33,478 nt of DNA, from NCBI GenBank assembly GCA_021108255.1, contig JAIORG010000220.1, forward strand, positions 1 through 33,478, given 5' to 3'. Position numbers and translations under genes: made by a program. This document shows, in pieces, positions 6,500 through 13,447 of this stretch. A model generated the notes under the pieces. The model did not search any database. It had not been told where the DNA came from and worked only from the letters and a program-made list of their open reading frames with translations. Each line of letters opens with the position of its first letter. Positions within the stretch are counted from its first letter, which is position 1. The DNA is from Anaerolineales bacterium. Its GTDB lineage: Bacteria > Chloroflexota > Anaerolineae > Anaerolineales > UBA11858.

Positions 6500-7489
6500 C
6501 TAGTCTTCAAAAATTTCGAAATATCCCTTATCTAATTCATCATCACTTAAATGTGCATACCGCTGTGTAATTTGAATATTCTTGTGACGGGCAAGTTTTT
6601 GAGCAAGCTTAATGTTCCCTCCCGATCCCTGAAGAATTTCAGTAACAAAATAATGCCGGAATGAGTGGGGAGTGATAGTTCCGGCAGCATCATCGCCCAA
6701 AGCCTCCCTGACCCTTTGATTAATGATATTCCGGCCTGTTGTCGTGCTGATTGGCTCAATCCTTTTACCAGCGCCCAGATCATGCCGGGCAAATATAGGC
6801 AGAGAGGTAAGCGCTTTGCCAAAGGCTCCATCATTCTCTGCCCTGGTATTCAGGTAATCTCTGAGAGCGTTCATTGCCCTGGTGGAAAACCGGACAATGG
6901 CTTCCTGATTTCCTTTTCCGATGATAACAGCTTTCCCTTCCTGCCAATCGACATCTCCACGCCTCAAATTACAGGCTTCATGCACTCGAAGACCAGTATC
7001 CGCCAGGGTAAGGATGAATGCCCGATCTCTAAGCAGCTGCAAACGCTGCCTTTTGCTTTCTGAGGGTATTTGTACCATTGATTGCGCATAGTTTAATACA
7101 ATTTTGATATCTGCCTTCGGAAACTGGGGGAGTCGCTGTCCAACCCGCCGTGATCTCCGTTTAATTAACATCCTCATCCGGGGAAGATTGATAACTGCTA
7201 AATTATCTGCTGCTAAAAATTCATAAAATCCAGTAGCAGCAGTCAGGTAAAGCTGCTCTGTATTGGGTGAGTAGGATTTTAGATCCGCAGCAAAATCAGC
7301 TATAAAATCTTCATTTAGAGAAGATACTTTAATTTCTGCTGGATCATTACCTTTTCTTATCCAGGAGGCTAAGAATGATTGCATCGCATTTGTATAAGTA
7401 CGGGCAGTATTTGAGCTGCGCGACAATCGCACGCTGTCAAGGTATTTATTTATTGCATCCAGAACAGTAAATGTGTTAGAAGGGGGCAA
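6500..7489 (-). CDS. Tyrosine recombinase, XerC/XerD-like
   Basis: N-terminal SAM-like domain plus a complete apparent catalytic set: DTGLRVHEACNLRRGD (Arg), IGKGNQEA (Lys), TPHSFRHYFVT (HxxR), LARHKNIQITQRYAHL (His and Tyr). TTG start. Confidence 0.88.
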   Translation of the reverse strand: MPPSNTFTVLDAINKYLDSVRLSRSSNTARTYTNAMQSFLASWIRKGNDPAEIKVSSLNEDFIADFAADLKSYSPNTEQLYLTAATGFYEFLAADNLAVINLPRMRMLIKRRSRRVGQRLPQFPKADIKIVLNYAQSMVQIPSESKRQRLQLLRDRAFILTLADTGLRVHEACNLRRGDVDWQEGKAVIIGKGNQEAIVRFSTRAMNALRDYLNTRAENDGAFGKALTSLPIFARHDLGAGKRIEPISTTTGRNIINQRVREALGDDAAGTITPHSFRHYFVTEILQGSGGNIKLAQKLARHKNIQITQRYAHLSDDELDKGYFEIFED

Positions 7490-7507
7490 AAGGTCATCTC
7501 CTCGGGT

Positions 7508-7555
7508 AAATCCTTATGCTTGCGATAATAGTACTTATCACAAGCATAAGGATTT
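7508..7555. promoter_or_regulatory. 48-bp near-perfect dyad, candidate dif-like Xer recombination site or operator
   Basis: AAATCCTTATGCTTGCGATAA-TAGTAC-TTATCACAAGCATAAGGATTT: 20 of 21 arm positions complementary, 6-bp asymmetric centre. Located 18 bp upstream of the recombinase start codon. Confidence 0.55.
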
Positions 7556-7702
7556 TAACAGTATTTTGATACCAGGTCAAGCCCCTGCTCTAAAGCATTT
7601 GCCATGAAATACATTCCAGTCCATGATCATAAAGTTTGCGATCACAATCCCCGCCTTTTCATCATCCATTCAATAATATCGACTATCCAACCCCAATAAT
7701 GA

Positions 7703-7737: not shown

Positions 7738-8883
7738 ATGAGTGACATCGAACGATTAGAGCTTCTGACCCGGCAAATGCATTTAGAACCTGCGGAGGAC
7801 TACTGCTATACATGTCCCTTACCTTCTCAAGGTAAAGAGGCAATTGCTGTCAAAACGGCTTTAATGCCAAACGGTCATGGCATTCGTCTTTTAAAGACCT
7901 TGCTCAGCTCCTATTGTGAAAAAAACTGTGTTTACTGCCCTTTCCGTTCCGGCCGTGACTTTCCCCGGGCATCCTTTACTCCGGATGATTTCGCACGATT
8001 ATTCCACTCCCTGTACCAATCTGGCTATGTAGAAGGTATTTTCCTTAGTTCCAGTGTGTTTCATGGCGCTGTGAAGACTCAGGACCTTTTGCTTGATACA
8101 GCTGCAATTCTTCGTAAACGATACCAATTCCGCGGTTATTTACATCTTAAAATCATGCCTGGAGCCGAAAAAGAGCAGATACAGCAAGCTATGCTGCTGG
8201 CAGATCGACTTTCCGTGAATTTAGAGGCTCCTACCTCTGATACATTAGCAATTCTGGCTCCACAGAAAGATTTCCATTCAGATTTACTGAACCAGCTGCG
8301 ATGGATTCAGGAAATCAGGATAGAGAAGCCGCCTGATCATGCCTGGAAGGGATCCTGGCCGTCCTCTGCTACCCAGTTTGTTGTTGGCGCTGCAGGTGAA
8401 ACAGATTTGGATCTGCTGTCAGCTACAGAAAACCTCTATCAGCAGACCAAGATTTCCCGCGCCTACTATTCAAGCTTTAGCCCCATAGAGGATACCCCCC
8501 TGGAAAATCTTTCGCCTTCCCCTCCTAGACGGGAATTCCGCTTATATTAAGCTTCCTTTCTCCTTCGTGATTACGGTTTTTCTGTGGAAGACCTTGTCTA
8601 CAATGAATCTGGTACTCTTTCCCAGGAAATTGATCCAAAGTTAGCCTGGGCTGAACAAAATCTGCTTCATCAACCGCTGGAAATTAATACGGCATCACGA
8701 TCCAAGCTACTTCGTATTCCTGGCATTGGCCCCACTCGTGCTGATAGAATCATCTCCCTTCGTCGTGCGGACCCAATAAAATCCTTCAGCAAATTACGTA
8801 AATTGAATTTGATTACCCCGAAAACTTCACCTTATATATTAATCAATGGAAAATCCCCCACCCTTCAGCTCAACCTCTTTTAA
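7738..8883 (+). pseudogene. Radical SAM / helix-hairpin-helix putative DNA modification or repair protein, interrupted by an in-frame TAA at 8548-8550
   Basis: ORF 7738-8550 carries SSYCEKNCVYCPFRSG (CxxxxCxxC-type radical SAM cluster motif). The same frame continues after the stop as ASFLLRDYGFSVEDLVYNESGTLSQEIDPKLAWAEQNLLHQPLEINTASRSKLLRIPGIGPTRADRII (HhH) to 8883. Joined, they read as one family-length protein. Confidence 0.8.
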
Positions 8884-9018: not shown

Positions 9019-9951
9019 TTATTTTGGGAACTCTTCCAAATCAATTCCAGCCATAAATTCGTCCAGGAGGAGTTTAATGCTTCCGGGTTCTTTTTCCAGC
9101 CACACAAATCCCTTCCAATCTGGGATATACAATGTATCTTTGGGTATACGGGTAAATTGAATAGCATTTTCTTCCATTTTGGCTGCCAGGCAAAGAAATT
9201 GACTGATCTCCGCCAGATGCATATCTGTCAGCACATTGCCTTTATAAAGACCTATTAGCTCAGGAATTTTTGGAATCACAGAAATACTGAAAATTTGCTC
9301 AAATAGGGCTTTCAATACAATCTCATGGCGGTCAACCCGATCATAAACATTCAGGGGATTTCGGTATCGGGCATATGACAAGGCGTCCTTTCCTGAAAAA
9401 AAATACCCTCCGGCAAGAAGTGCGGGTTTATTGCTATTATGGGACGAATATATTGGAGAAGGATTGTAGATCTTTAACCCGCCTACAGCATCAATCACGT
9501 CGCGGAATACTCGCATATTGATCACAATATAGTGATCAATATCAATTCCCCAATTCTGCTGAAAAGTAGCCATCATTAATCCCGCGCCATATCCCGGACC
9601 GTCGTAAAAATCCATGCTTTCGGTGCCGTAAAAATAGGCTTGAGTAAGTTTTCCATGCGTTCTATCAGCTTCTTCCACATCGGGTATCTCCACCCACAGA
9701 TCTCGGGGAAATCCCATCACTGAAACTACCTGGTTCTGAAAATCCACCCGGAATAGCATGGTTGTATCTGCTAAACCTTTAAAGTAGCCCACGCCCCGGG
9801 TATCAGTGCCAATCACAAGAATGGTCATAACCTCATCAGGCCCATTGCATATCCCATTCTGAGGTTCTGCGGCTTGCACAGTTTTGACATTAACAAGTGG
9901 CGAAAGCAAGCTGATGACAATTAGGCTAATTATTATTCTTTTCTTATTCAT
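9019..9951 (-). CDS. LytR-CpsA-Psr (LCP) family protein
   Basis: ILVIGTDTRG, DTTMLFRVDFQNQVVSVMGFPRDLWVEIP, DHYIVINMRVFRDVIDAVGGLKI, and SYARYRNPLNVYDRVDRHEIVLKALF are characteristic LCP motifs; N-terminal hydrophobic segment. Confidence 0.9.
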   Translation of the reverse strand: MNKKRIIISLIVISLLSPLVNVKTVQAAEPQNGICNGPDEVMTILVIGTDTRGVGYFKGLADTTMLFRVDFQNQVVSVMGFPRDLWVEIPDVEEADRTHGKLTQAYFYGTESMDFYDGPGYGAGLMMATFQQNWGIDIDHYIVINMRVFRDVIDAVGGLKIYNPSPIYSSHNSNKPALLAGGYFFSGKDALSYARYRNPLNVYDRVDRHEIVLKALFEQIFSISVIPKIPELIGLYKGNVLTDMHLAEISQFLCLAAKMEENAIQFTRIPKDTLYIPDWKGFVWLEKEPGSIKLLLDEFMAGIDLEEFPK

Positions 9952-13426: not shown

Positions 13427-13447
13427 GCTTTCTACGGTTCCTAAAAT

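Follow-up and report, generated by a model that had tools for sequence, protein, structure and literature searches.

The 28 bp at positions 7518–7545 of the window (the whole stretch of 33,478 nucleotides analysed here) are very probably a chromosomal dif site, served by a single Xer recombinase which is the product of the adjacent gene, as judged by comparison with related genomes. We refer to this protein as XerX, a name coined in this analysis. The preliminary description of the window had suggested a self-contained, one-recombinase system for dimer resolution, and this reading is now supported by the copy number of the site, its linkage to the recombinase gene, its position at the terminus in relatives and the finding of a lone intact recombinase.

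The site lies within a longer inverted repeat at 7508–7555 (AAATCCTTATGCTTGCGATAA-TAGTAC-TTATCACAAGCATAAGGATTT) of 21-6-21 layout, whose arms pair at 20 of 21 positions around a 6-bp centre, exactly as first described. No other 21-6-21 dyad in the window pairs as well, and the best score in 20 windows simulated with a first-order Markov model was 16/21. However, because a second dyad with 19/21 is found at 13444, between convergent genes and terminator-like by placement, length alone is not special, and it is conservation rather than length that distinguishes the 7508–7555 dyad. The inner 28 bp have 11-bp arms, GCTTGCGATAA and TTATCACAAGC, around the centre TAGTAC (GTACTA in gene orientation; neither the site nor the extended dyad is assigned a strand), and the dif-like 11-6-11 layout attributed to them earlier recurs in the consensus of 44 sites. 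These 28 bp are conserved order-wide, whereas the outer 10-bp extension of each arm is kept only among the closest relatives, and on such grounds we take the functional unit to be the 28-mer and not the 48-mer. The start codon of the recombinase gene is 18 bp from the dyad (a distance we reproduced) and 28 bp from the inner 28-mer, and the reported divergent arrangement is also correct, with the recombinase gene on the minus strand and its divergent neighbour starting at 7738. The exact 28-mer is present once in the 2.98-Mb assembly of the source genome, where the next-best matches have 2–3 mismatches, and the dispersed REP-like repeat raised in the preliminary description is rejected on this basis.

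Conservation of the site beside orthologous recombinases is seen in dozens of genomes (relatives that carry a name are labelled as Chloroflexota or Anaerolineaceae MAGs, and the majority of the genomes are fragmented MAGs). The 44 distinct sites, which come from many families, give the consensus GnTTnnGATAA-GTAYYA-TTATCnnAAnC in gene orientation, i.e. 28 bp with two 11-bp inverted arms and a conserved asymmetric 6-bp centre as expected of a dif. The arms hold 16.3 and 15.6 bits of information and the centre 8.0 bits, with arm symmetry somewhat inflated by the use of a symmetric consensus in the site search; near-identical arms of similar conservation would suit one recombinase binding both sides, as had been proposed. 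It should be noted that dyads of 7–9/11 are common among these sites, and base-pairing as such is therefore not conserved. A strict first pattern found sites in 35 of 72 genomes with an XerX gene and in one of 29 without. When 150 genomes were scanned (members of the order at least 95% complete, except for the source genome at 94%), 98 matched the consensus with no more than two mismatches, and 50 exact matches were found in 50 different genomes, one apiece; a control pattern read backwards gave three matches in total. Linkage to the recombinase gene, which is expected of a single-recombinase Xer system, was found in that the distance from site to start codon is mostly 8–60 bp, with values of up to 377 bp and 1.1 kb once. 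The site stands apart from the gene by 68 kb in genome G079 and by 1.1 kb in G087 and is on a separate contig in G094, and some five of the fetched orthologues have no recognisable adjacent site.

The sites are also close to single-copy, again as expected of a dif, with the exception of genomes of family f12 which have two non-identical sites each. These are located at C20:26219 and C52:33159 in G044, C1:15036 and C39:41395 in G056, C122:2803 and C135:3279 in G086, and C177:4394 and C259:5404 in G093, and the paired sites differ in having CTATCA-type and GTnnnA-type centres. At each of the two sites in G044 and G056 a plus skew gives way to a weaker or minus one (the gene-side stretch in G056 is short), and two chromosomes with one dif each would fit these double sites.

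XerX (6500–7489, minus strand) is a 329-aa Xer-type tyrosine recombinase with a TTG start and matches in both Pfam and NCBIfam, and a Shine–Dalgarno-like sequence, GAGGAG, lies upstream of the gene at 7498–7503 (minus strand). The Phage_integrase domain scores 98.9 bits (Pfam), and the R-K-H-R-H-Y set, previously called apparently complete, has all six residues (R168, K192, H275, R278, H302 and Y311), which are invariant in an alignment of 30 orthologues. The best NCBIfam match is to XerA (126.6 bits, cut-off 220), with XerC (125.2 against 335), XerD (112.7 against 330) and XerS (63 against 267) also below their cut-offs; we therefore do not file the protein under any of these names, and by sequence it belongs in the Xer branch, well under all of the curated cut-offs. 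Among solved structures, archaeal XerA and E. coli XerD are the closest in sequence, no XerH structure was matched at E 0.001, and XerA and XerD are also the top structural matches of the AlphaFold model, which is itself weak (pLDDT 66). XerX forms its own supported clade in a tree of Xer-type proteins, but this tree leaves the deep branching order unresolved and includes some mis-framed entries, and we give it no weight.

Orthologues of XerX at E ≤ 1e-50 were identified in 70 of 101 genomes (the source genome and its relatives) with a fragment in two more, and those that were aligned share 53–91% identity. The gene is absent from the remaining 29, partly as a result of incompleteness, with G032, G045, G069 and G021 lacking it despite being 97–99% complete. 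At the level of the phylum, a sample of 251 genomes searched with a strict E-value placed the family only in this order and in one other family of the class. These data bear on whether the recombinase and dyad might be an integrated mobile element, that is, an integrase with its att site, which we regard as extremely improbable. Phage and plasmid integrases are distant homologues (25–29% identical, and so under 30% among the matches listed) and integrases often adjoin att sites, but XerX is found order-wide in near single copy with the identity noted above, is surrounded by housekeeping genes in the window, is without a close homologue among 50,697 phage and 72,556 plasmid records, and is accompanied by a site located at the terminus in relatives.

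This location was determined from four single-contig genomes which were sampled at 20 places each for GC skew, with three then sampled more finely around the site. In these three, G057, G098 and G030, which are complete genomes from three families, the site coincides with a local maximum of cumulative skew, the switch at the replication terminus where a dif is expected. In G057 the cumulative skew climbs to the 5-kb bin of the recombinase start (1,683,250) and then drops, with the site at 1,683,292; for G098 the turn comes at 1,513,158 and the site at 1,513,112; and for G030 the end of the local maximum, at 2,386,900, compares with a site position of 2,387,036. The concern that the locus might be near the origin is thus answered in relatives. 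We note that the site and dnaA are 44–53% apart in G057, G098 and G075 but separated by just 15% of the chromosome in G030, which argues that the site tracks the skew switch and not dnaA; dnaA was rejected as an origin marker because of this failure in G030, and GC skew was used instead. The skew of G075 is disordered. Within the window, raw GC skew is negative on both sides of the site, while the strand-corrected skew at four-fold sites is −0.04 to the left and −0.22 to the right (p = 0.002, uncorrected) with the best break near 12.5 kb and not at the site, and the fragmented source genome is compatible with, rather than proof of, a terminus location. The site provides a precise terminus marker for a large and mostly uncultured order.

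Two Phage_integrase genes are present in each of the complete single-contig genomes G057 and G075, one encoding XerX and the other a 306–325-aa paralogue in which KK replaces the first catalytic Arg motif, SFxMCRW replaces HxxRH, and there is no Tyr nucleophile. Neither genome has a second gene with intact catalytic residues, so that only one catalytically competent Xer is encoded, and because the second recombinase is degenerate, a lone active enzyme most likely handles both half-sites. A canonical XerC/XerD pair elsewhere had been given as a finding that would count against the one-recombinase reading; G057 and G075 hold just the degenerate paralogue besides XerX, and none of the 101 genomes passes the XerD cut-off, which is strict and was passed by only 4 of 14 control genomes. 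We rejected such a pair since there was no curated match in the 101 genomes. However, XerD-like genes scoring 265–306 bits are found in several f3, f4 and f10 genomes, and some members of the order may therefore use, or additionally keep, another system.

The paralogue itself is found in about 90 of the 101 genomes, mostly in single copy, and these include genomes without XerX. In the source genome it is located outside the window at C76:6224–7153 (L257; L008 1132–2061) and lacks the catalytic Arg, His and Tyr, and in G000, G075 and G098 it adjoins a tilS-like gene (named by sequence). The remaining recombinases of the source genome (C197, C207 and fragments) resemble mobile-element integrases, and other genomes harbour further integrases of likely mobile origin. 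We consider it unlikely that this is a two-recombinase dif in which the paralogue, or some other recombinase, occupies one half-site. The near-universal, mostly single-copy distribution of the paralogue and its retained Xer-like N-terminal region are in keeping with such an arrangement, but the protein is without catalytic residues, it occurs where XerX does not, and the two arms of the site are near-identical and similarly conserved. It also seems rather unlikely that the one active recombinase is joined by the catalytically dead paralogue as a structural or regulatory partner, with the dif in the promoter coupling recombination to expression; if true, dimer resolution across the order would rely on an active recombinase plus a dead Xer paralogue. 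Each of the nine genomes tested encodes an FtsK-type protein carrying a gamma domain, and G007, G013, G030, G044, G057, G075, G079 and G098 encode two such proteins, not one.

The recombinase gene has a predicted sigma-70-like promoter on the minus strand, with a −35 element (TTGACC, 7575–7580) and a 17-bp spacer to a −10 element (TAAAAT, 7552–7557) which falls mostly within the outer right arm of the extended dyad and places the predicted transcription start at dif. A promoter of this type, with the −10 ending 6 bp before dif, is present in 16 of 46 orthologous upstream regions, and 74% of these regions have a promoter score of at least 9/12 compared with 9% of shuffles. The proposal that the long arms hold extra binding sites for the recombinase is not supported, because the right arm contains the −10 and the outer arms are conserved only among near relatives. 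It might be argued that the dyad serves solely as an operator or 5′-leader hairpin regulating the recombinase gene, with the recombinase acting elsewhere, given that a strong predicted promoter adjoins the site in many orthologues and that the leader RNA has a folding energy of −32.7 kcal/mol (z = −8.9). We judge this to be very unlikely, as the asymmetric centre is conserved but pairing itself is not (dyads of 7–9/11 are common), the site is located at the skew switch in relatives, and single-copy sites occur far from the gene (G079) or on a different contig (G094); a site that can be separate from its gene is not merely an operator. A terminator or other leader RNA was likewise rejected despite the strong fold, since conservation ignores base-pairing and no Rfam family was matched. 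The operator put forward in the preliminary description as the main alternative does not stand as an alternative, given sites far from the gene, but it does as a probable second role: as the promoter abuts and runs into dif, XerX is likely to repress its own gene by blocking RNA polymerase there.

Upstream of the promoter is a one-sided G-run (CAGGGG, 7582–7587, minus strand), conserved as GGGG(A/G) at 25–55 bp from dif. Such a run, often GGGGAG, is found at this distance upstream of the site in 35 of 49 cases, whereas the opposite strand gives 2, the downstream side 3 and shuffled sequences 13.6. The run points toward dif, and in sampled DNA GGGGGAG is biased to the leading strand (33:6 in G030, 27:6 in G057 and 12:2 in G098). 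It may guide FtsK, although this is a guess. The E. coli KOPS GGGNAGGG shows strong polarity around dif in G098 (40:2) and none in G057 (7:7), and was rejected as a general marker for want of polarity in the latter.

We propose that XerX would bind dif as two subunits, one on each of its near-identical 11-bp arms, and that two sister sites would then synapse as a XerX homotetramer. Strand exchange would take place across the asymmetric 6-bp centre, whose polarity would keep the exchange directional, and chromosome dimers would be converted to monomers at the terminus before division, probably under the control of FtsK. The dif-bound recombinase would also repress its own gene and so make its expression self-limiting.

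This system would resemble several that are already known. XerS/difSL of Streptococcus and Lactococcus likewise has a single recombinase with the site directly beside the gene as one module, but difSL is 31 bp long with a central region of 11 bp, and XerS is a 356-aa protein (PMC5357621), whereas here we find an 11-6-11 site with a 6-bp centre and a 329-aa protein scoring 63 bits of the 267 needed for XerS. XerH/difH of Helicobacter and Campylobacter is also a linked single-recombinase module (PMC5357621, PMC2731167), with the site usually linked and near the GC-skew peak (PMC2731167), but XerH is longer than XerX at 354–362 aa (PMC5357621). Archaeal XerA/dif shares the single recombinase and 11-6-11 dif, with gene and site together in some species (PMC5357621), but XerX has a bacterial host with FtsK-gamma and reaches 126.6 bits of 220. 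XerL/dif of the Legionellales is a further case of chromosome dimer resolution by a single recombinase outside XerS and XerH (PMC9765430); on the published description, its catalytic tyrosine at Y387 indicates a longer protein than XerX (PMC9765430). XerX would work like XerS/difSL, XerH/difH and XerL but with a conventional 11-6-11 site. This 28-bp layout, the ATAA-N6-TTAT core and the terminus location are shared with XerCD/dif of E. coli and B. subtilis, which uses two recombinases, whereas here a single active recombinase is found, the arms are conserved to a similar degree and there is no curated match to XerC or XerD. XerX/dif is most likely a further single-recombinase family, one having a conventional 28-bp dif with near-identical arms, and this points to one-enzyme systems having arisen, or been retained, on more than one occasion. 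How such a system is controlled becomes a testable question in view of the promoter overlap and the conserved dead paralogue. A large 2011 survey of dif sites made no provision for single-recombinase systems, and its Chloroflexi comprised only three Dehalococcoides genomes (PMC3025954). We found no publication naming an Anaerolineae dif, which is weak evidence as subscription journals were thinly covered.

Several further observations were made in relatives and in the window. Three genomes of genus g15 (L302–L304; G324, G099 and G067) have a divergent recombinase, about 39% identical, in place of XerX, and this is associated with a distinct dyad (ATTGAATATAA-N6-TTATATACCAT) which overlaps the −10 of its own promoter and is a candidate dif. 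In the window, the divergent neighbour of the XerX gene (7738–8550 and 8584–8883, plus strand) resembles the radical-SAM family TIGR03916 but is split, with a 270-aa ORF for the first part ending at a stop and followed by a separate 99-aa helix-hairpin-helix ORF, and this reflects either a real truncation or a sequence error. A perfect 11-6-11 dyad, ATATTGATCACAATATAGTGATCAATAT, is also found at 9515–9542 within the gene at 9019–9951.
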